Assembly: GCF_949628265.1 (NCBI RefSeq)
Contig: NC_088787.1
Coordinates: 25,100,501-25,164,500, forward strand
Reading direction: 5' to 3'
DNA: 64,000 bases
From: Cloeon dipterum
Taxonomy: Eukaryota; Arthropoda; Insecta; Ephemeroptera; Baetidae
In this document: one piece after another, positions 1-64,000 of the stretch
Numbering within the stretch: position 1 is the stretch's first letter
Layout: the number at the start of each line of letters is the position of its first letter
The notes under the pieces: model-generated
Seen by the model: the letters and a program-made list of their open reading frames with translations, nothing else
Databases searched by the model: none
What the model was told of the DNA's origin: nothing
Program-made: the position numbers and the translations under genes

Positions 1-71
1 TTGCTAATGTCAAAATCTAGACAGAGTAAAGTGGTTTTATTTTGTTATTTATTTTGAGATTTGATATTTAC

Positions 72-39481: not shown

Positions 39482-42400
39482 ATGAGTCGGTTTTTCGCCA
39501 CCGGAACGGATTCTGAGAGCGAAAGCTCGTCGGAAGAGGAGCAGGTTCAGCGCCAGCCAGCAGCAGCTTTCACAGTATGCTAATATTTTTCATTTCGAAA
39601 CATATTTTCGGATACTAAAATTTTCTACTACAGTTCAGCGATGATGAGGAAGAGACCAAGCGCGTTGTTCGGTCAACAAAAGAAAAGCGCTATGAGGAGC
39701 TGACTAATTTGATCAAGCAAATTAGGAACCATAAGAAGATCAAAGACATGAGTAGCATGTTATCATGTAAGTTAGCCATATTGCTTAGGTTGCCTTTGAT
39801 AATTAATTTTGAATTGCAGCATTTGAGGATTTAACACGGGCGTATCAAAAAGCTCTCCCCGTAATAGCAAAGGAGGAAAGTGGGGTCACTCCAAGGTTCT
39901 ATGTTAGGATTCTCGCTGAGCTTGATGATTTTATCAATGAAGTTTGGGAGGACAAGGACGGAAGGTTAATATCAAAATCGTTTAATTCAATTCGATTTTT
40001 ATAACTTTTCCTTTTCAGGAAAAACATGAACAAGAACAACTCAAAGTCTTTGGGTTCAATGAGGCAAAAGCTGAGGAAGTACATTAAGGACTTTGAAAAG
40101 GAACTCACCACCTTCAGAGAGGCTCCTGATGGTGATGATGAAGATGAAGCGGAGGGTGAGTTGGCCTTGCCTATTTTATTATGCTTCTCTAAATAATGTT
40201 GTGCATCTTTTTCAGAGGAAGATGTTGACTCCGACGACTCTGACGCAAAGCCAGTCAAGAAAACTGTTCCCAAACTGGAGCAAGAGAAAGCAGCAAAGGT
40301 AAATTTCTCTAGATTAACAAACTGACGAAATAAGTCTTCTTTTCATTAATTGATTGGTTTGGAATTTACCAGAACCAGGTGGTAATTAAGCGTTAATTAC
40401 TGGTATTTACCAGTTTTAACTTATTCTTTTGGTGCAGGGCACACTTTCAACTACTTACTTTTTGTACTTAACCATGCTAAAAATTTCACTTTCCTGGTAA
40501 ATACGGTAAATACCACTTGGTAAATACTTGTGAACACTGTTGGGGGTGATTGCCCTGCAATTTGTTCGTTGAGTAAAATATTAATTGGTCCCTCTATCTC
40601 TATTTCATAGAAACCCACTGCAGGTGATGATGGCGATGAGAGTGACGACTCCATGGATTGGGGCAGTGATTCGGATACTTCCTCTTCTGAAGACGAAGAA
40701 GACATTTATACCAACATTCGCGATCGCTTCTTGAAAAAGTAATTCATAAGATTATTGGCAAATTCCAGCGTCCTCATTTTGTGGGTTTTTTCAGGCCTGA
40801 GAAAGAGGAGGAAGAAACTAAGAGGGAAAAGAAGGAACGCCGTGATCGAGTGAAGAAGCGTGAGGAGGAAGATGACGGAGGCGTCTGGGAAACTGTCCGT
40901 GGAGGAGTTGCCATTCCTTCGGTTAGTTTTATTTTTATTTTGGAAGCTAAGGGTTGAATATATCTTTTTGCCTCTTAGGAAAAGCCGAAAATGTTTGCCA
41001 AGGATGCTGAGATCGACGTCAATTTGGTGGTGCGCAAACTGAGTGAAATCATGGCCGCCCGAGGCAAGAAGCGTACTGACCGCAGGGAGCAGATTGAGTT
41101 GCTGCACGAGTTGCAGAACATCTCTGAACTGCACAACCTGGGGCCTGCCATCAACTTCAAGATCAGACTGGCGATCATTGCTGCCATTTTCGACTACACC
41201 CCTAAAGTGTCAGATGCAATGAAGCCTGAGTACTGGACCAAGTATTTAAATTTCTCTTGATGGAGGAACAATTTTGGCTGATTATTATGTTCATCATAGG
41301 TTGTTGGACCGCATTCCTGACGCTATGGATGTGCTTCTGGCCAATCCAGACATGCAAGTGGCAGAGGAAATACTGGAAGAGCACGAACAGTTTGACCAGG
41401 AGCCCTACCAAATCAGGGGATGCGTCCTGACCGTCGTCGAACGTCTTGACGAGGAATTTGTCAAGCTGCTGAAGGAGTGCGATCCACACAGCAATGAATA
41501 CGTCCAGAGGTAAGCTTAAAGAGTTATTTAAACTCTCTTACCAAATTTAATTATAAACTTGTAGGCTCAAGGACGAAATCAAGGTCACTCAAATCATTGA
41601 TAAGGTGCAGACGTACATTGAACACCAAAACAAGCCTGCGGAAATCTGCAGAATTTATCTGAGGAAGATAGAGCACCTCTACTACAAGCTGGATGGCACT
41701 GTCCTTGAGAAGAGAGAGGTAAATCATTTATTAAATTAATTTTGACTTATTAATTAATTCATTACAATTTTTTATTTTTGTTCTAGGGCCGAATGCCTGC
41801 AGACACTGTTACAAGCGTGGACGTGATGGAGCGCCTGTGCAAGTACGTGTACGCCAAGGACAACACGGACAGGCTGCGAACGCGCGCCATCCTGTGCCAC
41901 ATATACCACCACGCGCTGCATGACAACTGGTTCGAGGCGCGCGACCTGGTGCTCATGTCGCATCTGCAGGAGACCATCCAGCACTCTGACCCGTCAACTC
42001 AGATCCTGTACAACCGCACCATGGCCCACCTGGGCCTGTGCGCATTCCGTCACGCTAACATCAAGGACTCGCACAGCTGTCTTGTCGACCTCATGATGAC
42101 CGGAAAGGTCAAGGAGCTGCTCGCTCAGGGTCTGCTGCCTCAGGTTAGCTCAATTAGATCAAATCAAACACTAATTTTTCATTTATGTCTTTATATGAAC
42201 AAATATACTATTACATTACTGATAATCAAGACTTGAGTATTGATGATATTTGGTTTAATTGATATATTATGTAGTCATAAATATCTGAAGATGAGTTGAA
42301 TATTAACTTTAATACCAATTTTTCAATAGCGCCAGCATGAGCGAAGCAAAGAGCAGGAGAAAATAGAGAAGCAACGCCAGATGCCATTCCACATGCACAT

Positions 42401-43259
42401 CAATCAAGAACTACTCGAGTGCGTCTATCTTGTGTCCGCGATGCTCATTGAAATCCCGTACATGGCTGGTAATTTGAAATCAACTCTTGTTTCAACAGAA
42501 TGCTTATATTTTTGCATCTTTCAGCGCACGAGTTTGACGCCCGCCGCAGGATGATTTCCAAGACATTCTATCAGCAGCTGCGTTCTAGCGAAAGGCAGAG
42601 CTTGCTGGGGCCTCCTGAGTCAATGAGGGAGCACGTTGTGGCTGCTTCCAAGGCTATGAGGAACGGAAACTGGAACGCCTGTTTCACTTTTATCATTAAT
42701 GATAAAATGAATGCTAAGGTATGCGTCTCAAACATTACCAATGCATAAGGAATTCTTGAAATTATTTTTGTTTCAGGTGTGGGATCTTTTTTCTCAAGCA
42801 GACAAGGTTCGCACAATGCTGAAGAGGCTGATCCAGGAGGAGTCGCTGCGCACGTATCTGTTCACATACTCAAACGTCTATGACTCAATCTCGATGGAGA
42901 AGCTCTCGCAGATGTTTGAGCTGGACAAGCCTGTAGTGCACTCAGTTATCAGCAAAATGATCATCAACGAGGAACTGATGGCCTCGCTGGACGACCCAAC
43001 GCAGTCGGTCGTGATGCACCGCTCTGAGCCGAGCAGGCTGCAGTCGATCGCGCTGCAGCTTGTCGACAAGGTCAACAACCTGGTCGACTCAAACGAGCGA
43101 ATCTTCGAAATGAAGCAAGGCAACTTCTTCGTCAGAGGTGGAGGCGGCGGTGGCCAGGGCAACTTCCGTGAGCGTCAGAATTACAATCGTCAGGGCCAGG
43201 ATTGGGGCCGCCAACGCAGAGACAGAGAAAATCGTGACAGAGAAAACAGGGCCTACTAG
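39482..43259 (+). CDS. EIF3C: Eukaryotic translation initiation factor 3 subunit c
   Basis: Core PCI-domain subunit of eIF3, binding eIF1/eIF5 and the 40S ribosome during start-site selection. Fourteen in-phase exons total 2,646 nt (881 aa; human 913): 39482-39574, 39634-39766, 39820-39964, 40019-40155, 40216-40298, 40611-40738, 40795-40921, 40979-41241, 41300-41509, 41565-41718, 41787-42143, 42330-42468, 42525-42718, 42777-43259. The protein starts [20 protein letters not shown], has acidic serine-rich stretches, a helical repeat middle, the PCI/winged-helix part ([20 protein letters not shown]) and an RGG-like tail with repeated R-D/N pairs. AATAAA is at 43,404-43,409. Intron 40,299-40,610 carries several copies of GGTAAATAC. 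Confidence 0.96.
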
Positions 43260-44147: not shown

Positions 44148-45037
44148 CTGGAGCTCCACCCAAACTATTTAAGTATTACCTTTTCACGTTCGTTTTTTGC
44201 TACAGTATACTGCTCACGCTGCCAAAATGAGTCGATTTTTTCGATATCCGTTTGAGAGCGAAAGTTCGTCAGACGAGGAGCAGGATCAGCGCTGCCTGCC
44301 AGCCCGATTTAAGAACTGGGTGAGAACATATATTATTTTACGTTTGGTATTAGGTGTTACATAAAATAATGCAATCTATTTGCCTATATAGTCTGATGAC
44401 GATATATTTGAGGAAGAAGCTAAGCGCGTGTTAAGGACAGCTAAGGAAAAGCGATACGAGGAGTTGAACAAACTGATTCAACAAATAAGAAATCAAAAAA
44501 AGATCAAAGACTTTGTCAGTGTGCTCACATGTGAGTTTTTGTCTCATTACGTTTTCCACGTCATTTGTTCAATTACCTGTATATAGCATTTGAGGGTCTA
44601 AGACGTGCGTATGAGAAAGCCCAACATGGGACATTAAAAGAAGAAAATGATATCACGCCAAGGTTTTACGTCAAAATTCTTGCTGAACTTGATGATTTTA
44701 TCAATGAAGTGTGGGATGACAAGGAAGGAAGGTTATACATATAGGGTTTTCGGTTTGATTTGGATCAAAATGTGATATATTTTTTTAAAGGAAAAAAATG
44801 AACAAGAACAACTCGCGTTCTTTAGCTTTAATGAGGCAAAAGCTGAGGAAGTTCATTAAGGATTTTAATGAGGATCTTATTGCCTTCAGAGAAGCCCCTC
44901 ATGCTGTAGATGAGGAAGTAGAAGGTGAAAGAGATATAGTGGCATTTTTATTCCTTAATTTTATTAAACCTCATTTCATTTAAGATGAAAAATCTCCCAT
45001 GGAATCTACCCAGCTACCAGGAGCCACGATAAAACTG

Positions 45038-45647
45038 GTAAAACAAATACTCTGAATGCTGTGTAGGTCAAGATATAGTCAGGCACATTTTATTGCACTT
45101 ATTGGACGCCCTTAAAAGGCGCCTAATTTTTTTGTTAGCATTTTTTTGTAATATTTAATTTTAGAATTTTTTGTTTCTCTTGCAAAAATACAATTAACAT
45201 CTAATAGATACAAGGTTTTAGATAGATATGATGATATTTACTTTTTATTTCTACATTTCATTTTAACCTATAGCTATAGTCACACTGCGCGCGCCTTCTC
45301 AGTAATGATCAAAGAATTTTTGCTCGTTTCACATTTAATAGAAATAAGTTAAATTCTTCTGAAATCAGCCCATTGGCTCGCATTGTAAAGGAATTCTAAG
45401 TCATTGTCTAGTCAAGGGAAAGGTGTTTCTTATGTGAGCGAGAGAGAAATACATGTGTTAGGACGAACAAGAGCGCAACCCTCTCTGGGGCAAGCGAAAA
45501 TTCGCGCAAGGGTATGAAAATAGCGTTCCATGCTACCGATTTTAACTCAAATGTTAAGCACCCCAAGCACCCTTTATTAATAGTTATAACTATTCTGGCA
45601 TAATTAATATTTTTTAATTTTTTTTCACTTGTAAAAAAATTTAACAG
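45038..45647 (+). other. Long intron in the eIF3c copy
   Basis: The corresponding parent intron (40,299-40,610) is 312 bp; here it is 610 bp. The part at about 45,285-45,510 is GC-richer and contains the CpG blocks GCGCGCGCC and TTCGCGC, so an inserted element is possible, but I find no clear terminal repeats or target duplication. Confidence 0.35.
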
Positions 45648-46549
45648 GAGAGCCCTAAAGCTCTTGACACTGAAAGTGACGATTCAACCTCAGGATGGGG
45701 AAGCGGATCTACAAAGTTGAATGAAACTAGCCAGCGAGTAAACTTCCACGCTCGGTTCTTAAAAACGTAAGATTATGGAGTTCCCATTTATTTGATCGTA
45801 TGTTTTCTCATTCATTTGACAGCAAAGGAACGGTGAAGGTTGAGAAGGCAGAGCGACGTGAGAAAGATCCACACAAAATAAGAATAAAGGAAGAATTTGA
45901 AGATGACTTTACGCTTGTTCAAAGAAGAGGAGCCAGGAAAGAACCAAAGCCAACAGCAATTTCCCAGGATTCTGAAATCGACGTCAATTTAGTGGTGCGC
46001 AAACTGGGTGAAATCATGGCTGCCCGAGGCAAGAAGCGCTCTGACCGCAGAGAGCAGATAGAGTTGCTGCACGAGTTGCAGAACGTCTCGGAACAGCACA
46101 ATCTGGGACCCGCCATTAACCTCAAGATCAGACTGGCCATGATTGATTTCACCTTTGACTTTTCCCAAAATATTTCAGAAGCAATGAAACCCATAAAATG
46201 GACTGAGTAATATTGAAACAATTGTTCTTATTTCTATAGAAAGGCAGCTTATTTAAATTATATACTAGATTGTTAAACTGCGTAGTTCCCGACGCTCTGG
46301 AGGTGCTTCTGGCCAATCCAGATATGCAAGTGGCGGAAGAAATACTGGAGGAGCATGAGCAGTTTGACAAGCCACCATATCAGATCAAAGGGTGCGTCTT
46401 GGCTATTGTTGATCGCCTTGATGAGGAGTTATTCAAGCTCCTAAAGGAGTGTGACCCGTACAGTGATGAATATAGAGAGAGGTTAAGTCTACAAAAAGAT
46501 TTTGATAACCCCATTTAATTTATTTTTCACAGGCTTAAAGACGAAATAA

Positions 46550-47150
46550 AGCTCACTCAAATCATTGATAAGGTGCAGACGTACATTGAACACCAAAACA
46601 AGCCTGCCGAAGTCTGCAGAATTTATCTGAGGAAGATAGAGCATATTTACTACAAGCGGGATAGCACTGTCTTTGAGAAGAGAGAGGTAAATCATTTATT
46701 AAATTAATTTTGACTTATTAATTAATGAATTACAATTTTTTATTTTTGTTCTAGGGCCGAATGTCTGCGGACACTGTTACAAGCGTGGACGTGATGGAGC
46801 GCCTGTGCAAGTACGTGTACGCCAAGGACAACACGGACAGGTTGCGAACGCGCGCCATCCTGTGCCACATATACCACCACGCGCTGCATGACAACTGGTT
46901 CGAGGCGCGCGACCTGGTGCTCATGTCGCATCTGCAGGAGACCATCCAGCACTCTGACCCGTCAACTCAGATCCTGTACAACCGCACCATGGCCCACCTG
47001 GGCCTGTGCGCATTCCGCCACGCCAACATCAAGGACTCGCACAGCTGTCTTGTCGACCTCATGATGACCGGAAAGGTCAAGGAGCTGCTCGCTCAGGGTC
47101 TGCTGCCTCAGGTTAGCTCAATCAGACCAAATCAAACACTAATTTACCGT
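46550..47150 (+). other. Near-identical tract shared with eIF3c (probable gene conversion)
   Basis: Here the copy and the parent (about 41,582-42,180) are almost identical, including the 68-bp intron 46,687-46,754 (about 2 differences from 41,719-41,786), the 357-bp exon (about 5 differences) and about the first 35 bases of the next intron. Exons upstream and the exon at 47,782-47,978 are far more diverged. Counts are by eye. Confidence 0.75.
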
Positions 47151-47172
47151 ATATGGAGCAATTGTAGTATTA

Positions 47173-47274
47173 TATTTATATATAATACTACAATATAATA
47201 TATTTATATATAATACTACAATATAATATATTTATATATAATACTACAATATAATATATTTATATATAATACTA
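47173..47274. repeat. 28-bp AT-rich tandem repeat, about 3.6 copies
   Basis: Units at 47,173-47,200, 47,201-47,228 and 47,229-47,256 are identical, followed by an 18-bp partial unit. Each unit contains TATTTATATATAATACTACA. It lies in intron 47,112-47,468 of the eIF3c copy and has no counterpart in the parent intron. Confidence 0.9.
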
Positions 47275-48551
47275 ATATTTATATAATATATATAAATGTT
47301 ACTGACAATTGAGACTTGAGTATTGAGATGGCATGCCTAATGGATGAATTAGGCTAGTCAAAAATACCTGACCCTTTTTCATAAAATAGAGGAGTACATG
47401 TATTATATTACTACTTACAATCATCAGATGAATTTAATATTAATCACAAACCTTTCATCGCTGAACAGTGCCAGCGTGAGCGAAACAAAGAGCAGGAGAA
47501 AATAGAGAAGCAACGCCAGATGCCATTCCACATGCACGCACATCAATCAAGAACTACTCGAGTGCGTCTATCTTGTGTCTGCGATGCTCATTGAAATCCC
47601 TTCCATGGCGGGTAAAATCAAGTTTATCTGACTGGGTCATTTTAAACTCGTACATGACTAACCTCTCTTTTAAACAATTATGTTCAAACTGATATTATTT
47701 TGTCTGGATATGGCAATGTATGGGGCAAAATAGCCCTGCAGAACCACAATAAAGAATTACTTTGACACTAATTGACTATAGCAACTTACGAGAAAGAAGT
47801 TCGAAGAAGAATTAATTCCGAGCACTTCTATCGCCTGCTTCGTGGAAGCGAAATGCAGAGCTTTGTGGGGCCTCCTGAATCCATGAGGGATCATATTGTG
47901 GCTGCTTCCAAGGCTATGAGGAACGGAGATTGGAGCTCATGCTACAATTTTATCGTTAATGAAACGATGAATCGCAAGGTAAATGGTATTTACGGGTCTT
48001 TAAAATCACATTAAATTGAGTTATTTTTAGGTCTGGAATAACTGTGCGCAAGCAGATAAGGTTCGCACAATGCTGAAACGGCTAATCCAGGAAGAGTCGC
48101 TGCGCACTTATCTGTTCACGTACTCAAATGTCTACGACTCCATCTCGATGGAGAAGCTCTCGCAGATGTTTGAGCTGGAAAAGCCTGTGGTGCACTCAGT
48201 GATCAGCAAAATGATCATCAACATGGGGCTGATTGCCTCGATAGATGAACCATCGCAGTCGGTCGTGATGCATCACGACTTAAGGCCGAGAAAGCTGCAG
48301 TCGATAGCGCTGCAGCTAGCCGAAAAGGTCAGCAACCTGGTTGAATTGAATGAACGTAGATAGAACGGAGAACAGAAGAGGCAACGTCTGTGGTAGGGGC
48401 CATGGCCAAAAACGCAAGGCACTTTAGCATGGACGTTTTGGACTTGCAACAAAAGCAATTTGCCGGGAGTACTTCATAGGATCTCAAAAATTTTGAAGAT
48501 ATTCAAGGTTGTTTTAGTATTTATTGTTTTTACGAATGATTCAAAAAGTCC

Positions 48552-48630: not shown

Positions 48631-51600
48631 TTACTCTTTGCTGAGAACAAGCTTAGTTCCATGGAGGATAAACGTACTTGGGTGTTCACTGCATGGAAGG
48701 TCAAATTCCCAAATTGTGTGGGTAGTGTGCGAGCTGGTGAAATACAGCGGCATCCGAATCTGATGCTGTTCGCATTTTAGTCAATATTAAATGCATATTT
48801 TAAGGAAAGCAAGCTCACCCCATGTGGCTCTGGAGTGTTTTTGACAGCCGTGATTTGCAGTACAGGCAATGACTGTGACAGCACGCACACTTCTGCTGGC
48901 TGCAAACACTGCTTTTCCGCGTCCCAGCCTCCGTGCTGTATGTAAATTCCTTTTACATAAGTTCCCTGGGTCGGATTTTTTTTATTTAATGGCACCAAAA
49001 ATATATTAAAATTTACGTCTTTGAGAGCTGGAAGGTGTTTAGTTTTTGTAACCACTGCCTCTAAACCAGCTTGTTCGATCGGCCAGTGGTACTTTCTGCA
49101 AGCCATTTGGAGAATTGACAGCAAGTAAGAGCGCGGATTAGACAGACCAGGCAGCCAGGCAACCAGAGGTTCGTGCTTCATCACCTGCAAACACAAACAT
49201 TTTAAACTTTGGTTTTACTTGACATGCTTGCTAAAAGTCTTAGGGGATCGTTCAGGCGCAATTTCATTTAAATAGGATTAAATAAAAATTTCAAAAATTT
49301 TTATCAATAAATAATTTAAAGCGTGTTACCCAGTCGTAATACTGCTGGAATCTGCGTTGCAAGTGTTTAAGCCAAGGCGCCAGTTTTTTGTTGCAAGGTG
49401 GGCCGAGTGCCTTCCACTGTTCCGGCACCTGGTTTTCCATGATGGCAGCCTGTGATTCTTTTAGTTCGCGTGTCAGCTTTCCTTTACCTTTCATTGCCTG
49501 GGATGATTTAATTTTAAAATTACTCAGTGAGTAACGATAGCTCATATCACACATTTTCAAGCGCGTCGAGAGTGAATCTAATAAAGTCGAGCAGGTGGTT
49601 GAAAATGCCGATTTCCTGCGCAACAAAGTTTTCCAAAGCGCACATGCACTTGGCAGCTCGCTTGATCCTCGCAGGGTCTACGTTTTCTGGCACCAACTGC
49701 CGGATTCGCTGCGTGGCTCGCACCAGCTCTGTTTGATGAGCTAACACATCTTCTCTTAAAACTGAAAACAAATTTGAAACTCCAATGGTAACATGATTTT
49801 CATTCGTTAATTCTGTTTTGAGATTCACAATCGCTCGGATATGCAACCCGCACGGTACAGCTGTAAAACGGCACAGCTTGTTCTCTCTATCAAGGCGCGA
49901 ATTATGATGTCACACGTTTCTAAGTTTCCCCTTCCACACCAAAATTTTTATAAAAAATTAATTCAGTAGACAAAAAATATCAAAATACTAAAAAAATCTC
50001 CGAAGTTACAAAATTTCTTACTTGGCTGTGGCTGCAATTTAGCCAAATTCATGACCAAGCTCTTCAAACTTTGCTTGTTGTGCTCCACGTCAGCGTTGCT
50101 GTGCAGTCCCAAAACAACGGGACTGTAATTCAGTGGCAAATTTTGTACATAAGCTAAAATGAGAATACTAGTTTATAGAATGTTAACCCTTTGAATATCT
50201 TTTTACCGAGGATTCCGAACAGGTTTTGAATGCTGGGAAGGCCGTAAGTGATGTTTTCGTCTTGGTAGAAAGCAAATTTCGGCGCGAAAATGTGCGCGCC
50301 GCAAAATTCCTGCAGGTACGTGCGTACCACCCGCAAATCGTATGCGTCTGTCATGTGCGCGCCGTAAACCACCTTCTCCATGAAAACCTGAATGCTCTCC
50401 CAGGGAATTTTCCTCACGGGAGCCGCGGCCAGAAACTTGCCAAGAAAAGCGGCACAGGCGTCGAAATCGGGCTTGGCGAAGATATATTTTAAATTCCAGC
50501 CGACGTTTTTGAACTCGCCTCGTTCCTAAAATGCAATTATTTTTTTTATTTTGTCGTAAAAACTGCAAAGTCTCATGCCTGGATTGTTGCATGGAAATGT
50601 GCAAGAGCGTAAAGGATCTTTCCAAAGTCTGAGTGCTTGCTTTTGCCCATTACTTCTGGCTCAATTTTCCTGAAAGTGCTGTTCAGCTTGAGCTTCAGCC
50701 CTCTCGGCGTCTCCAACACGACTGCACAAATTAATTACAATAATTGCCAGAAAAGCAAATGAATTTCCAACCTTTCAGCGCGTTGTGCAGCAGGATTGGC
50801 GGCAGTTCGGTGGACCGGTCCGTAGTTATCCACAATCGGAATTTCTCGTGTGGTGAGCTTTGGTCCAGTTGGCACCACACCAGCGCCGGCAGATTCGGCA
50901 CCAAGTGACAGTTGACCAAGAGAAGCCACTGGCCGCGCCGAATCGCGTTTTCCAAGGCAGCCATCGCGTTCTGCATTTAAGAAACCATTTTAACCATCTT
51001 TACGTAAAAGGGATTTGCCATGCCTTTTCAGAACCCTTTCCAAGGGCTAAAGAGACGAACTGACCCCGGTCGAGGCCCATTTGCCTGGAGAGGCGATGCA
51101 ACTCCATGCTGGGGTCGACGCCGCCACCGCTTACAATGAAGATGATCGGCACTTTTGCTGTGCTTTCGCTTAGCAACGAACGCATGCTGCAAATTAACCA
51201 ACAAATTTCAAAATATAGAATTTAAGGAATTTAACTTTAAGTTGTTTTTTTTATCACGTGTTATTACAAATGTTTTTCACATAGGATTTTAACTATCATA
51301 TGTACATAAAACTGTGATTGTTTTGACTAGAACTTATTTCTACGAGTTAAATGATAATTTTTAAAGGCACAAAACGGGCGAGAAGAGTAGACAGTAGAGT
51401 CAAAAAGTGAAATGTGTAAAATATTTCGCAATATCCTATCAGATTCCAAGTATTTCATTCGTAATTCAATACAATATTAGAAAGTATCCCAAAATTATTC
51501 ATGTCGCAGTTTTTATTTTATTAAATTTCAAAGCAGGGAGTTCACAGTCAAACTCGGGTGCATCAGTCCACTCATTAGCCACTTTTCCCGAACCAAAGTG

Positions 51601-54600
51601 ACCGCCAGTCTGCTAGCTCCCCCTCCCATCGTCCCTATTCTCCCTACGACGCAAGATCAGATGAGAACAAGTCAGCTGCTGCGGCTGGGTTTTAGCAATG
51701 CTTGTACTTTGTAGCAGTCCGGTTTGTTGTGTTCACAATGTGATGCAGTGTATATATCATCTTATATTTTTTTACATTTTTTATAAATTCGTCGACTAAA
51801 AAGAAGACCACCAAGGATACTGATTGTGAGTAAGAAAATATCACCTTGCATCTTGAGCTACAAGGTGCGATTTTATATAAATATGGGTTTCGTCCATAAT
51901 GTGTGTGTATATCCCGATTGAAAACGTTAATGTGCATAATATGTTATTGATGTACCTGGGTATGATTGGTGTGATAAAATGCGGCCCAAAAATATCTGCT
52001 ATGTAATCGAGCAAAGCTGGAATTACTCGGTCAGATCGCAGAGCTTTCACGAGGAGTAATTTTTGGATTTTAGACAGTCTTTCAGCATAATCCAGAGGAA
52101 TCGGTCGCGTTTCAGGTCGAGCATCATCAATCCACTGCAATCGCCACCAATATTTTAATAAGAGGCGAAAGAAATATAAAAAGGGTTTCTAATTTTTACC
52201 CTTTTCCAACCATCTGAGTTTAGATCATTCAGTAAACTACCAAAAACATTTGGGAATTTTTCTTTCAACTCCGTAACAGCCGAATAGGCCTGAAATTTCA
52301 GGTTTTTAAATCTTCAGTTAAGTTTGGCGTTCATAAATTTTTTTTGCCTCATTTGACATCCATGAAGGTGACACTTCTTGTGATTCCTCTGACAAACTCA
52401 AAAAGCTACGCACTTCATCAGATGAGATTTCACCGTTGCTCAGCTGAATGCGCAAAATCAGTGCCAACGTGAATGGCAATTGGTGTTCTGCAAAAAGACC
52501 TGATGCAAGCAGCCAAAACATTAAAGTTTACGCAATTTCCCTAAAAATATTACTTCTGCAAGTGAAGCTGTGGACGTTCATCGTGATTATGTCCGCTACG
52601 TTGGCGCTTTGTCCGTCCTTTTCTTTGGCGTCCGCCTCGGCGAGCGAGGAGGTCATTAGTTCGCGAAAGGTCGTCAGGGAGAACAGATAAGTTGCGCCCA
52701 TGTGCGCCAGGTCGGCCAGAACGGAGAACAGAATTGCAGATCTGCGTGCAATAGCGCTGAACTCGTCACACACGCTGTCCAGTTGGCCGTGAGCGGACAG
52801 CAAAATTTTCTCTTCGGCCGACGCCTGGAAAAATTTATTCGACTTTTATCATTAAAAAATTTCATTTTTATACTTAACGAAAATTTTACTTTAATATCTG
52901 AAAGCTCCATTGCTTATATTTAAATTTTATTTTTCTGCCCATTGAATCCAGTGAATCAACAATGAGTTTAAAATGTATCCATGTCGAATTTAATTAAATA
53001 ATTTGGAATTTAATAGACTCCTCTGCAATGGAACACTGAAAACGCATTTTATTACTAATTATAAATAATCTTTTGAAAAATGCGATCACTCGAGGATGAA
53101 GCCTGATTTTAATTATTTTCAACATATAAATAATCTTACTTTATCTATCTCTCTCTTGGTCTCCTCGAGGGCTGAGAGTAAGTGCTGATCGTCCAAAATT
53201 ATTGTGTCAGTCGATCTGACCAAACTCTGGACCAGCTGCACGTGCAATTCACTCAACTTTCTCTTCAGCGCTTCCCTTTGCAGTTTGTAGCACCGTCTTT
53301 TCTCAAATCTCTCAGCATTTTTCACTTTTATCACGTCCTTGGCCAAAACTTCTTCCAAAGCCTATAAAATTAAATCGTCGCAATGTTCTAATCTGCAAGC
53401 TTTTCTACGCACTTGGGCAGTCATTGTGCAATCGATGACAGTGGTTTTTGAAAACACGTCAGCGTCTAATTTAGAATTCGCCTCTCGGGTGTTGAAGTAG
53501 ATTCGAAATTTGGTATTAAGCTGCACGGCATTGTCGCCTATTTTTACCGTCCTTGCGGTGCCATTTTCTGAAAAATCCGTTATATTCATTGAAATTTCCT
53601 TTAATTACACAATGAAAGATTAACCCGAGTATATTTTGTCCAGCAGGTCAAACAAAGCCGAGCTGATCGAGTGGCTCACGTCCTGAAGCAGGACAGGCTT
53701 GCCAGCTACCATCGCACCCTCGACCTTCTCGACTAAGTCGCAGTCAAATGCTGATGCCAGCACCAGGTCCTTCTCCGCAGCTTTTATCCATTCTGCCGCC
53801 TTAGAAGGTAGGTGTAAAAATTGAGAAGGAAAGAAAAAATCTAATGCAATGACCGAAAAGAATTGAAATATTTTCCGTAGGAATTATCAAAGTTAGATTT
53901 GATTTGCCTTGAATTTTACCTGCTGCTGTGGATCGATGCACAAAGGGGCGCGGACAGCGCAAAATACTAGCAGCAAATTGTGCAAGGTAGCATCGTCCAT
54001 TTCGTCCCATTCAACAAATCGATTCCTGTTTCTATATTTTATTTTATTACTTAACAAACAAAAAGCACGATTTAACATACTCTTTGATGTCTCGGAGATC
54101 CAAGTACTTTTCCGGCGTGAAATTATCACTGTACAAAATATTTATGGTTGTAAGATTACGAGCCCAGTTATGCACGAGGTCCTTGCGTGGCCCCAGGGGA
54201 CTTAGGGGCCCACAATAGCTGACAAATGCTGCCGTCAACAGACAGTCGCCAATCAATTTTGATGCTTCTTCGCGCGACTGCTCCATGTTGGATTCCATTC
54301 TGCCCAGAGAATTAATATTTATTCGTTTTGGTTAAGTTCAGTGCATACTTGGTTCTTTCGATTTCCAAACTGGAAAATAAACTTTGGGTGCGATTCAGAT
54401 GCGATCGTATTTCCTCCGCAGCGTTATGGGACGCGTTTAGTTTTTGCTCCATGCTCGCCCTTTCCCCTTCCAGAACTCGCAGTCTCTCTTCCACCTCCTC
54501 GACTTCCTTCCTGAAGGTTGAAGACCTTTTCTCTGACTGAGGACCCGCAATCAATTTTGTATTGAACAACGACGATTAATATTTTTCCCACGCACCTCCG

Positions 54601-57600
54601 CTAGCTCCGCTTTGCTTGACGCAATCTGCTCTAATTTTGGCTTAACTTCGCGTAAAACGTTGCAGTAATGCAAGACAGCATTCACGAATTCCGCTATTGT
54701 CTTGGTCACTGGGCATTTTACAAATAGCTCCTCCAAATTGCCACACTTCTGTCAGGATAATATTTCGTATTGGCATGCGCTAACTTTACTGAGAACGTTT
54801 GAGCGGGTTACCTTTAGTTTCACTTTGACTTTTCTACACGTTGAATGGGAAATGTTTTCGCAGTCCATCAAAGCCAGCTTGTTGATTCCCTCTGTGTCAC
54901 TAAATATTTCTTTTAACTCTTGGACTGTGGAAATTTTTTCACTTTGGAGCAAGAAAACGCTGTCACAAAGTGTTTTAAAACTCTCCAAAGGCTCATCCAG
55001 AAAACTTCTGTAATTTTTAAAACTTGTAATTCTATCAGTATTTAAAAATGTGTGTGTGTGTGTGTGTGTGTTTTGTTAAAATAATTCATTTCTATAACCT
55101 TAGGTTTTCTAACTGCTCCTGTTTAATATTTTGCATGGCCTGCTTAGCTGCACTCAATTCAGGGAGTGCACAGTCCAAGATTCTTTGCACTTGTATTCGC
55201 TCAGATGCAATAATTCTGATTTGGCGCTCAATCCCTCGATCCCACTCGGAGTGAAGGTGGATTTTCTTTTCCTTTAACTCATTGACTGCGTACAGACAGA
55301 CAGTAAAAAAATGCAAAATATTTTCAACCACACACCTTCTAGAATTTGATTAAGTAGTTGGCCTAATGCTGATCTGTTTTCATCAAGCTGCTTTGACTTT
55401 TCTTCAAGACGTTTAGTCAACTTCAAAACTGCATCGTTTGCAACTTTAAGCTTCGCCAACGCTGTTTGTAGCTCATGGAACTGGACATTATTAATAATTT
55501 GCTTAAATTTAATCAGCGTTGAAAAAGGAACATTTTACTTTGGTTTCGATTTCTCTTGAATATCTGTGCAGGAGTCGAAGGAACAATTTGATGAAATCCA
55601 CGTAGAGTTTAGGTGAGCAGTTACTAGCTTCAGTTGTGCTGCTTTGATGGTACATTTCATGTGCCATCGTGTGTGTCGACCACACGTGGCTTAGGACGGC
55701 TGCTTTTCTGTTTTCTGGTATTAACTCGACCTAATTTGTTAATTATAGTCAATTCATTAGCCGGTAAGCTGTATGTTACGTTTGATATGTGGTATTTGGC
55801 CACTTTTTGAAGTGCATTCTCGTTCCAAGGCCTGTACCAGTCTAGCATGGTGAAGGTCAAAAACTCGGGGTACTCCTGCGTCAGCGATAGGAGCGTTTCC
55901 CTTTGCATGCTCAGCACGACGTGGAGTCGCGAAACGCAGTCTTTCTGGAAAGTCGACCAGGTCTTGTCGGACGATTCTTTATCTTTCCCAATGCGCTGGA
56001 TGATTTCGTCCTTTTCTGATTCGTCAAAAAGTCCAGGAATCCAACCGTTCGAAATCGCGTGGTAAATAATCTCGGAAATTCCTACAAGGGGTTGAAATTA
56101 TTGGTCTAAATATAGTAATCGAAGGTTAGAATTTTTTATTTTTCACCTGGTTGCTTTAAATCGGCGTCCGACACAAACAGGACGACATCCGTCTTCTCCA
56201 CGCCCATCAATCTGTACATGTGCTTGACAGCTTTTTCAACCGCGTCCACGGCAAAAGGTAGCCGGAAGGTCTCGTAGTGCGCCGCGGTGGCTGCCAACGT
56301 GAAAATAGACTTGCGACCTGTGCCTGGCTCGCCGATCAGCACGGCGTGGCCTCTGCGCATCCTGAGGACGCGGTGCAGACGAGAGAGGTGCTCGAGAGCG
56401 CTGTCAAAGAGGACAATGTCCAATTTCTGTTCCCTCTCCTGTTTGTTGTACTCTTCAAGAACCTGGGAAAGTTTAAATGCACACTTAAAATCCGACTTCT
56501 TTAAGTAATGTACCTCCTGAAAAAGAAAGAAGACGGCTTCAAAGTCGAGCAAATCTTCGTAACAGCGCTTCTCCTCGCTTTGAGTGAGTGCGTTGCGGAA
56601 ATCTCCAAACAAGACAGGATCTCTCAGTGTGTGTGCCTCAAATGGCTCAAAGTAGTGTTTGATGGCATTTTCAATAAGCTTTTCAATCAGTTTTTGGTCC
56701 TAAAAAATTTATTTTAATAATTCAAATTAATTTAAAGTAATTAAAAGGAAACCTCGCTTGTTTCAAGACGGTCATAAAATACTCTGTTAACTTCGTGGCG
56801 CCACGCTCGGACGAATGTTTCTGGCTTGGTGAAATTCAGAGGTTTCGTTTGGCACAAACCCCCAAAGAGGCTGGTCAAGTCTCTAACGCCAATGTGGCAC
56901 ATCCACCTGGCAGGAGTTGGAGGCAGAGTGTGATTCAAAACCTGGACAAGGGTGTAAATCAGATAAAGGTATAGAGGCTTTGGCTCTTGAATGCCTTGAA
57001 CAAATGTAAACTGGCGGTGACTACATCTTCAGATAGCTGTTTGACTTCTGTAGTGAAATGTTGCAAATGTTCGCTTAATATTCTTGAGTATATGAAATGA
57101 AGCAGCTTGTCGGTGAGCTTGGGCGTGTAAATCAAATTCAATTTGGCTATAAATCTTGGGTCCAGTTTTGCGGGAGTCATCGTGTCACTCGTAATGGATC
57201 CAATAAACCCTGCAAAGATTCGACGAATGAAGCAACTACAAATTTTGCATTCGTTGAAAAGTATTCGACCTATTTCTTTAAGTTCCACCCAATCATAATC
57301 CGGTCCATCGCAATAAAGTCCTCCCTCTTGGAAAAGAACCCTTAAAAATTCTATAGATTCTTGTGAGCCAAATTGGTCGCACTAATAGGCATGAAAATAT
57401 TAGTTTTTCATTGCTTGATTCTTTTCATTTGAATTACTGTTGGCATGTTCAAGTCATCAAGAAACAAAATCAGCTTCTTTTGCTCTTCTGGTTGCATGAT
57501 GTTCTGTGTCCTTTTATGCATGACAGATTTTATGGCATTCCGCACATCTCGTGCTGTTGTTTGCAGCGAAAAATTGAACCTTTGCCCAAGCTGAATAGAA

Positions 57601-60600
57601 TGTATTAATTTTCTGACTTTTAAAATAGTTTAATTTGTCTCACAAATATCAACGGGTTGAGCTTTTCTATGAAAGATTGTATCATCAACGTTTTTGAAGA
57701 TCCCTCACATCCAATCAAGACCAGTGGCCGTTTTATCTGCCAAAAGAAATGCAATTTATAAAGGGAGTTGTTAATATGTGATTTTATAAATGTTAACCTC
57801 TCTGAAAACGAGATCTCTGAAGTTCCTTTCACAAAATTTATTCATGAGCCAATGATGAAATGCGGTCAAAGGCGTTGAAATCATGCCCCTCTTAGCGTCA
57901 TCTGTGGATTCTTCTTTCCACTTTGTCCAGCGTCCTGTTGCGTCGTCCCACAGAAACTCAAACAAACTTGTTTCGGGCAAAAGATCTCCAGTTGGCGATT
58001 TTCCATTATTCTTTGTCTTTTCTTTTAATAAGGCATCAAATTTATCTCTGTCGTGCGCACGTACTATGTGCGAGCCAATGGATAAATAAAGCGCTTGCAG
58101 GAAAATGTGCTTCAAATTTTTTACGTGGTCAGCTTCCAAAACATGCAGCACATCCAGAAGCTGGTTCAACGCATTGATTTCACTGAAGGGAACAATTGTT
58201 TCTACGTTATCAAGAGCCATTTGTTTTAAAATATGAGGAACGTATGTTTGGTACAATGCATCGAGTTCACTGGATATGCTCTGAAATTTCGCATTGATTC
58301 CCGTAGCCCAAATTGCGTGATGCAGGTCCGTGACTTTATTGACATAAATTATTGGCGATCTGGGTAATATGCTTGGCGATGCAGAGCTGAAATTTCCAGA
58401 TTCGAATATAAATGAGAGATTTCCTCTATCGTAAAACAGTTTGTCCCCATTCAATAGAGTGACACATTGGTGGATGTCGAGAACAGAATCCATACAGCCA
58501 ATCCAAGTCGAGTCCACTTGCGAATCAAACACAAAAACGGACTTTGCACGAGCCTCACATGCTGCTTTGAAAAGGTGCGGGAAGAGACCATCGCTGTATT
58601 TATCGCTTTGAACGTGACCGAAAAATTCGACCGAACTGATCGCTTTTGGACTGACAAACACGGGAACTTTATCTTTAAGCACCTTCAGCGCAATTTTTAC
58701 TATTACCGACTTGCCCACTCCACTTTCGCCGAGGATAAGAGCGCTATTACTGTTTCGCAAGGCCTCCAGCAAATAAACGGTTTTTTCAATCTGAGACTCG
58801 ATGACTTGCCACCCTTGGGCATCAATAACTTGGCGTACTAACGAGAAATATTCGGATTCTATTTGCAATTCGCCAGTTCTCGGGAACACATCTTTCACGA
58901 TTTCCTTGTAAATATTCACGTCTTCTGCGCACAATTTGTGGACAGTGTTGTTTTGCACTGCAGTGAATACAATCCGCTCTTCGTTGTCCTCGTTAATTGA
59001 TTCTGTCACCAACAATTTTTCGAGATTGCAGAGAATTGTGGAAAGCTGAAGCAAACCAAATTCGTAGTGCTTCTGCTTGGACAGTTTGTCGGAACACAAC
59101 TCGCAGAATTTCGTAATCTTACTGGCCAGTTTCTAGGAAAGGATTTGTATTAATAAATCAAATAGAGTTTGAGTCGGTTCAAGGCACTCACTTTGTACTG
59201 CACGAACATAAAAAGCTGCAGTTTCACCGAGCAGATTGTGTGCAAATTGGGCGTAGAGCATGCTGCGGGGCGAAATAGGGCTTTCAGCGAAGAAGGCAGC
59301 TCGGTTCTCCCAAACTGTCCGGGACGGAGAGTCGCGAAAATTGCCATTGAACTATCGAGCGTCACCTCTGTAGCGTTGAAGTTGAAAGTACGTAATTTCA
59401 TGACCAATGCCGTCTTTAAAGTTTGCAATTGGGACGCTATCACGGACATACTGGATGGTGCGAGCGAGTCCAGTTGCTTGAGACACCCCCAAAATCCACT
59501 TTGGGCCACCCCAGCAAGGAGATGGGCGACACTCGGCCAAGGTGTAGCGTTGGTACAGTCCAGTGTGACCAAGTGGCGGCCTAGGGTCCGCGCAAGATCG
59601 CGGATAATTTCACTCTTTCCAGTACCTGCATGCCCACATATAAGTACACCCATCTGGAGGCTGAGCGTCTGTGTGATAATCAGTATGACATTGTCCGATT
59701 CTGGAGTGCTTATCGGTGTGTCTCCCAAACCTTCAAAGGATATTTTTATTTTAATGATGTGTACGAGTTAAATCACTGAAGGGAAGAGTTAACAAATGGC
59801 ATGCTCTGAAAGGGTGTGGTGATTTTTTTACAATTTTTCTTGAATTTTTGCAAAACAGTCATTTTAGTAAATAAATAAGTTAAGAAAAGGTGTGACGGCA
59901 AACTTTTTGAATTTGTGCACTTATGTGACACAATTTTTTTCAAAGAAAATAATAAAGGTGCGCAAACCAATTTTCACTATTGTGCTGTTAGAATTTAAGG
60001 AATTTAATTTTAACTTATTTGTTGATCGTTTAAAACTAATTGCATATTTTCTTTTAAAATATTTCATTTTTACCTGTAAACTCGTAGCCATATTCAAGAT
60101 CACAAAACGCCTGTCTGATGTTCAGGCCGCGTTCCTTTTGGTAGTAGAATCTCAATTTTGAATCCCACAAGAATTCCTCTTTGTGGACAACTCCGCTATG
60201 CACAAGCTGTTCCATTACGTCCTTAAAATACGTAACTAGAGTGAACGCCGACGTGAGTTTCATCTTTTGGACGCAGCTTCCTCCGTGCTCTTTGAGTTTT
60301 TCCATGATTTTCATAAGTCCATCATTGGCTTCTATCATAAATCGGCGCAGCGCCTTGATGTCTCCTTCCCCGAGGAGCGAGAGTCTTGCTTCGACTTCTT
60401 TTGACCAATAAACGTACAAGGCGGGTTGATAAAAATTTGAAGGGCATTTCAAAATATCGTCCGGTGCAAACGATTGCACGTGGGAAACGCTGATTTGAAT
60501 GTGATTTCGCACTGCTTCTTTAATAACGGCGTCCAGTTTGCACAAAAGCTCGGTGGTTTGCTCCTCTTCAAATATAAGTGGTTTGTCGAAACTGATGTAC

Positions 60601-63600
60601 TCGCCGTGCAGCGACGTGAAACCATAAGCCTCGTATCCTTCCTCTTCTTCTCGCTCGTGTACGTGTATTTGTGAAATGAATGGATAGGAATTTTTCTGAA
60701 ACATAATTAAAATTTCAATTAAAAGGAAAAAATTAAAAACTAATCTTAACCATCGTTGCTATCCTGTTGAAGCAATCAGGAGGCACGCTTGCCAAAATTG
60801 ATGTTAAGTCGCAGTCGTTGATGAAGTATAGTCTTGGAAATATTTGCCTTTTCATGAACAGATATTCGCGGAGGTCCAACTGACACTCTTCAAGATTAAC
60901 CGACAAATTTCGCACTTCATTCAAATAACAATTAGTGCAAAATGTTGATATTATTTGTGGTTTTTGTGCAATATTTTTCAACATTTTGTGGTGCGTATTT
61001 CGGCACAAATTGAATCTCTTCTGAGCAGCTTCAGTCAGATGAATAGCGATTTCTGCTTTTGAAAAGAGAACCACAAGATTGGTCCAGTTTTTGTGGATTC
61101 GAGTCCAAAGATCGATGCATTCCTCAATTTTTGATAAGGTTTCCTCCCAAAAGCGCACTTGGTCCAGAAACGGTTTGACGAAACTACATAATCATTTATT
61201 ACCATGGTTGATTAGGAAAGTGATGTTATATTAGTTTAAAAATTATAACTTACATTGAAGTTGACAGAAAATGTAGTTTTAATTGGTCAGCCTTTAATTT
61301 ATCGAGTATGGCATCAAAAGATCCTAAAAGAAGACCAAAATCTTCGCCCCTAAATATGAGTTTCATGACTCTGCAATCCTGTTGCTGCCAGGTTTTCTGC
61401 ATCGTCTCCAACAATGTCTCGATTTTTGACTCCTCCTTTGCTTGGAGTAATATTTGTCTTGTTGCTTTTTCATGGAGGTGCAGTTGCATGTCAAACAAAT
61501 TTTGCAAACTAAGCCGATCCGCAGCCGTATTGAAGCTGTTGCCCGTTTCCAACATTAGACTGCGCCAGTGCCTTTCTCTTAAAGCATCGCATTTTAACTC
61601 TTCAAACAGTGGTATGGAACTTTTAAAGCTGTTAATTTCTTCCTTAACATGAAAGGCAACCTCTTCACTTTGGGCTTGCGAGGATAAAGATGCAAACTTT
61701 GCGTCAAATTCTTTTATTCCTTCCGAGAATGCTCCTGGTGAAATGTCAACCCACAAAGTCGAAGACCACTTCGCCTTCGTGCTCTGGGCAGGTTAACTCG
61801 TGTTTTTAGCAAATCTGTATTTTGAAATCATATTTTTACTACCTTCAACTGGTTGAACAGCTCATAAACCTCATGCAAGCAAGCCATTCTTTTCTGAATA
61901 TCTTTCATTTTTGAAAAGTCTGAGAGGGGCAGGTCAAACAGGTATTCATCTGCTGTCAGTTTTAATTTTCTCTCCTCTAACTCATCAAGCTCGTTTTTGT
62001 ATTTTTCCATGAGCAGTTCTCCACTCGCCAAGTCCTTTCCTACGCATCCTGGACCTGATTTGCGAAAACTCTCTTCAAGTTCTGTGCAATTTTTAGAAAA
62101 GTCCTCTGCTGCTTTGAGGGTTATATCTGAGTAGTGCTTGCGAATGCCAGAAAGTTTATCGGCTGTTTTCTTAGACGCTTCAAATAATTCTTGCCACATG
62201 GACCACAAAGCGCCTGACATGCAGAGGTCTTGAGCATCCACCTTTAAAAAAAGCAACAGCAAGAAACGAAAATTTTATAAACTGCAATCCCCACTGGTAG
62301 GAGGTTAAAATAGTATTGTAATTAAATAATTTTATTCCAAAACTACATATTTGTTCAGAACTTTTCTGATAACTGAATCTTTTATTGCCAGCAAAATATT
62401 TTATCAAACTGCTAATTTCAAAAATAAGTTTGTTTCCATAAAATTTCAATATTTCATTTTTGTCTACTATTGTTATATATATATGTAATAAAATCAAGTA
62501 ACTTTTCTAATAGAATTGTAGCATTTTTCCTTGGTAATAAGATTCAAAAGTATTATTGTATTCAGCAAAATAAGACACACGCAGGAACTTAATCGAACAA
62601 AATATTATTAGATTCCTATCTCATACTACATCTAATATTTAAAAAAAAACTGCCTAAGGAAATAGTTTAGAGACAAACCTGGATGTTGTGTGCAGAGATA
62701 GTCCGATAATTTTCTCGAATGAAATATGCCTGAACTTCTCGATCTGTATTGTTATTTCTGATCTTGACGATGGTTTCTATCACTTCTCTCAATGTCTCTG
62801 GGTCGTTTTCTTTCACCTGCTGTTCCAATTCAGCCTGCAAAGTCCACATTGACCACAAATACTGTTTCATCTCCTTTTTCGACGTAGAAATTATGTTCTG
62901 AGCCAAATGCCACCTCCACTCGGCAGCGTGCTCCGCAATCTTTTCGACAAGCGGTCCCAAATTAACCCTGACGCAGCCAATGTCCATGTGCTTTGTTGCT
63001 GTTTCCATAGTGCTCACTATGGACGTAAAGTAAGCTAGTTTTTCATCACGTTCAACCATTGTTGGTGATTTTGCGGAGAACTTCTGACATGTGGTCACTT
63101 TGTCGTAGCTCCACAAAATTGAATACTTCTTCCATCTGAAAGAAAATTTTACCAATTATTAAGTCAAAGTTAACCGAGAAATTAGTGAAATTGTTTGATT
63201 TTCAGAAATATGAAACTGTTTAGTGAACTTACGAATAGAGTTTTTGCTTGACTTTGATAAGGACATCTTCCGCTATAACTTTCATGTTAGCGTACTCATC
63301 TTTTACTTTTTCCACTTTGGCGACATCGTCTAGAAAGGTGGATTCGGTCGACCAAATGCACGTTCCGTCAGCCCAACGATGAAAATTGCCAGAGGTCAGA
63401 ACCACTTCCTTGGCACTTGACATCAAAACGGAATATGCTTCTGCGGGTAGCGGTTCAAGACGCAAATCATTGTTAACGAGCGAAAAATCGATCTGTAGCA
63501 TCACCACGTTGCCAGACAAGGCTTTCGAGAAGTAAATCAAGCTGCCTATAATTGCCCTTAAAATGATGATTTTTACAAAATGTGCAAGATTTTGATGCGT

Positions 63601-64000
63601 CTCATTATAATATACTTTAGCAGTGCTTCGAAAAATAGTTGCTCCCAATGCAAATAATATTTGGTCATGCACTCCTTTTTTCCTGATTGGGTTTTGTCCA
63701 GGAGGTACTCCAGGTCAACCAAAATCTTTGAAAGATTTTCATACCCCAGCAGCATCTCTTTAACACTGTTGTCTCTGCTCATCGACGCTCTTTTGAAAAA
63801 CTCCTGAGACTGAAAATGAGCAACACAGAACACATCGACTCTATTATTTGTCTTACGTTCCAAGGCACAACACCATCCATATTCTGCACGTAAAAGAGAT
63901 TGAACGACTGAATCAGGTGAACTTGTCGCTGCGCATTATTCGAACAGAGCATAAATTGTTTATAAGAGGCGCTGAAAACTTGCACTGCTCTCTCCAGAGA
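48631..64000 (-). CDS. Divergent axonemal-type dynein heavy chain, partial (5' end outside window)
   Basis: All C-terminal dynein modules are present. The stop is at 48,631-48,633. Firm exons include 48765-48631, 49184-48819, 49497-49330, 49761-49553, 50153-50022, 50525-50207, 54748-54597 (low end approximate), 55007-54812, 59132-57798, 59730-59192, 60695-60074 and 61183-60751; further exons are clear by homology up to the right edge, where the tail is still being read. From high to low coordinates: tail and linker (60,074-64,000), AAA1 (59,192-59,730), AAA2 (57,798-59,132), AAA3 (about 57,430-57,740, with LILFLDDLNMP), AAA4 (about 56,148-56,463, P-loop GEPGTGRKS), stalk (about 54,597-55,480), AAA5-AAA6 (about 51,957-54,300) and C-terminal region. 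Many motor motifs are altered. I found no stop or phase break where I checked, so it looks functional but specialised. The subclass (inner or outer arm) is unresolved. Confidence 0.85.
50526..50578 (-). other. GC-AG intron in the divergent dynein
   Basis: The upstream exon ends ...ACA ATC CAG and the intron begins GCATGA; the next exon starts after ATTTTAG with GAACGAGG. Reading past CAG gives GCA TGA, a stop, so a GC donor is required. The joined protein H-A-T-I-Q-E-R-G-E-F matches dynein C-terminal regions. Confidence 0.7.
51188..51956 (-). other. Long intron of the divergent dynein; no gene seen
   Basis: About 770 bp of mostly AT-rich sequence between the AAA6-region exons. I find no recognisable RNA gene or coding exon. 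Similar featureless introns lie at about 59,731-60,073 and 62,243-62,680. Edges of this and the last intron are approximate. Confidence 0.45.
54597..55480 (-). other. Stalk and microtubule-binding tip of the divergent dynein
   Basis: The exons encode a coiled coil (segment KLTKRLEEKSKQLDENRSAL onward), the tip (exon 55007-54812 and the start of 54748-54597) and the returning coil (VLREVKPKLEQIASSKAELA). The tip is about 80 residues between the coils, a little shorter than in DNAH9-like chains, and the conserved tryptophan segment before the third tip helix is missing. A (TG)11 microsatellite at 55,049-55,070 lies in the intervening intron. Boundaries of the outer exons are approximate. Confidence 0.65.
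55049..55070. repeat. (TG)11 microsatellite
   Basis: Uninterrupted TG dinucleotides in an intron of the divergent dynein; no functional meaning is implied. Confidence 0.95.
59192..59730 (-). other. AAA1 exon of the divergent dynein with degenerate ATPase motifs
   Basis: This exon encodes Walker A GHAGTGKSE, close to the usual GPAGTGKTE. The Walker B region, normally [11 protein letters not shown], reads G-F-W-G-C-L-K-Q-L-D-S, so the metal-binding D and catalytic E are K and Q. The sensor-I region, normally T-M-N-P-G-Y-A-G-R, reads T-L-R-P-G-Q-F-G-R, so N is R. The following LPSSLKALFRP is normal. The exon is in phase at both ends (59,730 phase 1, 59,192 phase 0). Confidence 0.88.

Follow-up and report, generated by a model that had tools for sequence, protein, structure and literature searches.

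Can a dynein heavy chain be kept once the catalytic residues of its AAA1 site are gone? This question is raised by a gene in a 64,000-nucleotide stretch of the Cloeon dipterum genome (contig NC_088787.1, positions 25,100,501 to 25,164,500), hereafter the window, in whose numbering features are given. According to passages of two published sources (PMC7215579; PMC12338079), dynein mechanochemistry is driven by AAA1. The preliminary description of the window proposed a chain retaining the architecture of a motor with AAA1 naturally inactivated, and not a plain pseudogene.

Class and domain order of the heavy chain

A search of PDB sequences with a 1,143-residue query spanning AAA1-AAA4 recovered two chains named DNAH10 at 614.5 bits (8j07_k8) and 609.2 bits, followed by 9fqr_Hl (609.1 bits, in a record named for another protein), 8glv_Cn (519.7 bits, generic name), IDAf-alpha (490.6 bits) and 9y6s_7G (440.0 bits, generic name). 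Three of these six best sequences (614.5 to 440.0 bits) are named DNAH10 or IDAf-alpha, and the next family, DNAH6, follows at 388.1 bits. The chain 8glv_Cn was taken as the algal 1-alpha chain on the basis of its rank and not of its record name. Identity to 8j07_k8 amounts to 264 of 838 aligned residues over query positions 2-869. Alignment with the dynein families thus gives DNAH10 as the best match by a wide margin over AAA1-AAA4, and on this sequence similarity the gene is of the DNAH10 class, the alpha heavy chain of the two-headed inner dynein arm I1/f. It resembles the DNAH10 and algal 1-alpha type also in its domain order, yet differs from it in having lost the Walker B D-E pair and the sensor-I N, and in the weak score of its stalk.

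The gene lies on the minus strand, running from 64000 down to about 48634 (48634..64000), and its start falls beyond the window, where open frames with tail homology extend to about window position 67,940 (locus L019) and, once joined, match the dynein tail profile DHC_N1 with 176.5 bits. The gene model was built from open frames, homology (including the PDB matches) and splice sites, and comprises 29 exons down to 52329, with further exon pieces reaching the C-terminal region. The modelled part encodes 3,019 codons and no stop, an absence partly built into the model since introns were placed where frames change. Of its 28 introns, 27 are GT-AG with consistent phase and one is GC-AG (56995/56941). 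At the junction 52329/52289 there is no normal donor: dynein-like sequence stands on either side in different frames, with no GT donor in the interval 52289..52329, and this could mean an extremely short, atypical intron, a lesion of the gene or a wrong consensus. The earlier statement that the frame is intact where checked therefore stands for the 3,019-codon model, with the reservations of frame-derived introns, the GC-AG intron and the donorless junction. These last two irregularities would fit a DNAH10 gene that only recently became a null allele or pseudogene in the strain sequenced, but the consistency of the 27 GT-AG introns upstream of the junction, the persistence of dynein homology past it and a divergence of AAA1 too large to be recent make such an allele improbable.

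All six AAA modules and the C-terminal region were recognized, through Pfam in the case of AAA_6, the AAA lid, AAA_8, AAA_9, AAA_lid_11, D6 and Dynein_C, and through alignment in the case of AAA2-AAA3. In the spliced model the linker (DHC_N2, 246.6 bits, profile positions 1-401 of 403) maps to 60497..61908, followed by the AAA1 exon. The end of AAA1, AAA2 and the AAA2 lid are encoded in a single exon of 1,335 nt (57798..59132), identified by sequence, Pfam and alignment, in which the AAA2 Walker A (GESGVGKS) is retained; this exon, reported previously as lacking a stop, is real and open from 59132 to 57798. The AAA3 exons (56753..57736), delimited by alignment to PDB chains, retain Walker A (GCEGSSKT) and Walker B (LDDLNMP), have lost the GGGRN stretch, and hold the GC-AG intron (56994-56942). 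The AAA4 exons (55780..56699; AAA_8, 146.4 bits) carry a Walker A-like GEPGTGRK loop. The stalk and microtubule-binding domain (54349..55730) is strongly diverged, its Pfam MT match being weak (36.8 bits) though above the cut-off of 24. Further downstream are the AAA5 and AAA6 exons (52329..54299; AAA_9, 147.2 bits), the D6 P-loop region with AAA lid 11 (50157..51221; Dynein_heavy 84.6 bits on pieces joined by hand, AAA_lid_11 79.8 bits), the exons of the dynein C-terminal domain (48780..49677; Dynein_C 47.5 and 81 bits) and a last exon at about 48780-48634, judged by eye. The architecture first described (linker, six AAA modules, stalk and C-terminal region) is thus recognizable, with the tail in addition, though the stalk is only weakly so.

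Other genes share the window. A second dynein heavy chain, of outer-arm beta type and with FDEFNR and TMNPG motifs, occupies 1-10070 on the minus strand and continues to 25095006, under 40 kb away from the DNAH10-class gene. On the plus strand are two tandem eIF3c copies (39818-43018 and 44585-48272), one with an eIF-3c_N match; nine matched stretches between them share 76-95% identity, and the variation of this figure along the gene suggests that gene conversion or selection of uneven strength has acted. A run of open frames on the minus strand (28967-31148) forms a multi-exon gene, four pieces of which gave no Pfam match above the cut-off. Also on the minus strand, 33384-33803 encodes an ion-transport domain (64.1 bits) with an EF-hand-like stretch nearby, and by eye looks like a two-pore channel gene.

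The AAA1 site and constraint on the motor domain

The AAA1 exon (59192..59730, minus strand, read from 59730 to 59192) is bounded by an AG acceptor and a GTGAGT donor, and the Pfam profile AAA_6, which describes the hydrolytic ATP-binding site of dynein, matches 59153-59728 (E 6.1e-47, 160.7 bits). Direct reading and alignment with the human DNAH10 chain 8j07_k8 and the Chlamydomonas chain 8glv_Cn confirmed the changes reported in the preliminary description. Walker A is retained at 59612..59635 as GHAGTGKS (canonical GPAGTGKT). At Walker B, the D-E pair present in both reference chains is replaced by K-Q (codons AAG CAA, 59474..59479), the motif reading WGCLKQLD here against WGCFDEFN in the two references, and at sensor I the N of both is replaced by R (codon CGT, 59324..59326; FATLRPG against FITMNPG). 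Around the site the alignment is free of gaps, and substitutions have altered several adjacent codons. An assembly or consensus error at 59,470-59,510, earlier considered as a possible source of the K-Q codons, is hardly credible, given the gapless in-frame substitutions across many codons and the related losses at five other loci of the genome (see below).

The AlphaFold2 model of the AAA1 exon (178 residues), computed from an alignment of 23 fragment rows from dyneins of the same genome, reached a mean pLDDT of 86.8 and a pTM of 0.79, and the first Foldseek match of this model was 8j07_k8, human DNAH10 (TM 0.82 by query length). On the strength of that pLDDT and that match, AAA1 is predicted to retain its fold although its catalytic residues are lost. 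A parallel can be drawn with engineered Walker B E-to-Q dyneins, in which E to Q alone favors trapped ATP, and which share with the present chain a glutamine in place of the catalytic glutamate and a conserved Walker A. They differ from it in that here the aspartate has also become lysine and sensor I carries an arginine. The ATP-trapped state cannot be assumed for this AAA1, and extrapolation from E to Q would be unsafe because of the K at the Asp position and the R at sensor I.

Replacement extends well beyond the catalytic residues. Among positions identical in 8j07_k8 and 8glv_Cn, the chain keeps 86 of 215 in AAA1 (40%), 51 of 135 in AAA2 (38%) and 54 of 130 in AAA3 (42%). Judged from these alignments, constraint is relaxed across the whole motor and not in AAA1 alone, and a change aimed at AAA1 alone is disfavored since replacement is equal across the three modules. 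The initial picture of a chain in which just AAA1 has been inactivated finds no support in that form, with the GGGRN stretch of AAA3 gone and the stalk weak as well.

Substitution on this scale has nevertheless left the reading frame open. In exons 9-10, which encode AAA1 and AAA2, 213 of 350 fixed positions are replaced and no stop occurs, against 13.1 expected under neutrality (P0 2e-6); this comparison is independent of intron placement because it is confined to those two exons. With AAA3 included, for which introns were placed by hand and one is GC-AG, 289 of 480 fixed positions are replaced and 17.8 stops would be expected (P0 2e-8), while the AAA1 exon alone gives 3.2 expected stops (P0 0.04). 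These estimates cover the 480 positions at which 8j07_k8 and 8glv_Cn agree over query 2-869, outside one Chlamydomonas block at query 486-568, and they assume that all 289 replacements were unconstrained and that nonsense and missense changes stand in a ratio of 0.0616 (DNAH10-class gene, kappa 2). The gene is thus probably not a plain pseudogene, as had been argued from the open AAA2 exon. The preliminary description had further held that orthologues with D-E coupled with neutral decay would speak against its reading; the human and algal chains, which are distant relatives, do have D-E, but the reading frame shows no neutral decay. A comparison of the AAA1 exon with a collection of genome contigs yielded 318 pattern matches, none of them confirmed.

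The chain could in principle still be an active motor, hydrolyzing ATP at AAA3 or AAA4 or by some unusual chemistry at AAA1, and the AAA3 Walker A and Walker B and the Walker A-like loop of AAA4 are indeed largely retained. This is very improbable, however, with the acid pair and sensor I of AAA1 and the GGGRN of AAA3 all gone, and with AAA1 described, in passages of PMC7215579, as the principal hydrolysis site in studied dyneins. The explanation we prefer, at a probability of about one half, is that the gene encodes a hydrolysis-dead, full-length-looking inner-arm chain of the DNAH10 class that is retained for structure or passive cross-bridging. Counting against a retained pseudo-motor are the motor-wide relaxation of constraint, the weak stalk and the donorless junction.

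Inner-arm and outer-arm chains elsewhere in the genome

An AAA_6 profile search of the 190-Mb assembly returned 38 exon matches, which were grouped by position into 12 loci; this number of heavy-chain loci is a lower bound (at least 12), because genome searches score only the best candidates. AAA_9 supports 11 of the 12, the exception being the DNAH2 locus, and the same AAA_6 search in control genomes gave matches in 3 of 14, none above the cut-off. Only one DNAH10 was found in the assembly, the other 11 loci being of other types as assigned by PDB search (eight loci), by identity to L011 (one, outer-arm beta) or by motif only (two, cytoplasmic). No DNAH1 was seen among the at least 12 loci, and the set resembles that of Drosophila as given in a passage of PMC6367277. 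No telomere motif was recognized in the opening 300 bases of seven contigs or the opening 600 of three others, Rfam yielded no match in the window or in three contig starts of 9.9 kb, and a TTAGG pattern search over the genome, with a tool that passes over simple repeats, was negative.

AAA1 is intact (Walker A, FDEFNR, TMNP) at six of the 12 loci: two cytoplasmic, three outer-arm and one inner-arm. L009 and L012 are presumably cytoplasmic 1 and 2, as judged by motif. The outer-arm loci, all of them intact, are L010 (DNAH5 447.5 bits, Chlamydomonas gamma chain 349.4, DNAH17 299.3), L011 (DNAH17 707.5 bits, DNAH9 680.2) and the second dynein of the window, 169 of whose 180 AAA1 residues are identical to those of L011. 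Of the inner-arm loci, seven in all, the sole intact one is L013, a member of the DNAH3/7/12 group (DNAH3 558.0 bits, DNAH7 556.0).

The six loci with an altered AAA1 are all of inner-arm types, namely DNAH10, DNAH2, DNAH6 and three DNAH3/7/12-like chains. In the order Walker A, Walker B and sensor I, and with approximate exon joins in L014-L018, the five besides DNAH10 read as follows: GPVSSGKT, WICLDELDS and LATLGNAG in L014 (DNAH7-like, 751.6 bits); GPACCGKS, WCLLDEVHQ and CVTSQRP in L016 (DNAH12-like, 389.6 bits); GDPAVGKT, WLCLKNVEH and FATTLRA in L018 (DNAH3-like, with 9fqr_Xx, a record named for another protein, at 499.0 bits, DNAH3 at 476.2 and DNAH7 at 473.6); ESSRASGKF, WAVIKNYLD and FLAST in L015 (DNAH2 best, 156.1 bits); and GESAVNGKR, WCCLSNTEN and ITMISSTG in L017 (DNAH6, 194.0 bits). 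The sensor-I Asn is lost in all six altered chains, its exact alignment in L015 and L017 being less sure than the loss itself, the Walker B D-E in four and the Walker A GK[ST] in two, L015 and L017, which are the two most diverged inner-arm chains. That catalytic residues of AAA1 are missing from six of the seven inner-arm chains in a single genome is of greater interest than the one gene.

The DNAH2-type chain (L015), which is the I1/f beta chain and hence the I1 partner of the gene in the window, shares with it an altered AAA1, with K-N at Walker B and sensor I lost. It differs in that Walker A is also lost (ESSRASGKF) and in its stalk (91.2 bits), which is better kept than that of the DNAH10-class chain. 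At this locus AAA_9 gave no match at E 0.001 and the joined C-terminal pieces no Pfam match, while dynein-like open frames, followed by eye, continue to the C-terminal end.

Several replacements recur among the altered chains at sites otherwise invariant in eight intact chains: the P before Walker A has become I in five of the six (simulated P 0.00025), the F of Walker B has become L in five (P 0.00075) and a K has become R at one site in four (P 0.0035), under a BLOSUM62 null that ignores codon and structural bias. At Walker B, the D has become K in three of the four chains that lost it (DNAH10, DNAH2 and DNAH3-like), and the E has become N in three of four and Q in the fourth, each at about P 0.03, uncorrected for 35 sites. 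Odds computed after the fact are 0.001 for D to K and 0.0005 for the four amides; such odds are not a fair test, so both parallels are only suggestive. Lysine for Asp in three chains together with an amide for Glu in four might point to a locked site independent of Mg2+. Taken as sequence patterns, the parallel replacements suggest a shared regime.

The same chains bear on a further explanation, namely relaxed selection toward loss, under which most inner arms would no longer serve this lineage as motors and their genes would drift, AAA1 residues going along with others, with no special new role for the proteins. The even replacement over AAA1-AAA3 (40, 38 and 42% kept) would fit such drift. 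So would its variable degree: out of 59 AAA1 positions invariant in the eight intact chains, L014 keeps 35, the DNAH10-class gene 32, L016 27, L018 26, and L015 and L017 18 each, counting gaps as not kept (two in L014, none in L016, five in L018, six in L015, where no upstream exon was supplied, and four in L017). Graded decay also fits because DNAH2 and DNAH6 have lost Walker A too, and the missing AAA_9 and C-terminal Pfam matches at the DNAH2 locus point the same way. Set against these observations are the stop-free exons 9-10 of the DNAH10-class gene where 13 stops are expected, the stalk match and the extended open frames of DNAH2, the parallel replacements, and the retention of radial-spoke and DNALI1 genes. 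Relaxed selection is less likely than not, yet it is the foremost competitor of the preferred reading. The preferred reading of the DNAH10-class gene may be extended, tentatively and with rather more doubt than belief, to the whole group: at least six inner-arm chains of different classes, both I1 heads included, would have lost AAA1 hydrolysis in parallel and persisted as pseudo-motors of full length, serving to build and stiffen the axoneme, with sliding left to the outer arms and one inner-arm chain.

Axonemal context and significance

Matches to DNALI1, RSPH3, RSPH4/6 and DRC1/2-type NYD-SP28 were found in the genome, together with a single weak match to CASC1_N (49.4 bits, with two stops in the matched stretch). 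In view of these matches a spoke-bearing axoneme is likely; a chain of the DNAH2 type, the partner of DNAH10 in I1, is also present in the genome. Gall midges have axonemes with outer arms only. A comparable axoneme was considered for this insect and rejected, since radial-spoke, DNALI1 and DRC1/2-type matches are present; gall midges were not mentioned among the matches listed in a literature search on outer-arm-only axonemes. According to published passages, I1/f presumably opposes other dyneins (PMC6367277), and tethers connect its motor domains to the A-tubule (PMC6249098).

A retained DNAH10-class pseudo-motor might operate as follows. With Walker A kept, AAA1 would still bind nucleotide or be frozen in one state, and with no hydrolysis there the head would lack a power stroke. 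Tail, linker, ring and stalk would be needed to build the inner-arm row, where the chain may link one doublet to another, whether passively, as a tether or as a source of drag, force being supplied by the outer arms and the one intact inner-arm chain. A partial precedent is mammalian DNAH12, described in a passage of PMC11949491 as being without a microtubule-binding domain. It is likewise a natural inner-arm heavy chain without a standard motor part, but the part missing there, as far as that passage goes, is the microtubule contact, whereas here it is the catalytic residues. Among the literature matches listed, none was recognized as describing an axonemal heavy chain whose AAA1 is naturally inactive.

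The roles of inner arms as force generators and as regulators or brakes are difficult to tease apart, since both disappear when an arm is removed. If the proposed reading is true, a lineage that retains its inner-arm chains yet dispenses with their AAA1 catalysis would provide a natural separation of these functions, and several pseudo-motors would have evolved in parallel in a single machine. The axoneme predicted for this mayfly would then have its inner arms present, its sliding driven by the outer arms and its waveform changed.
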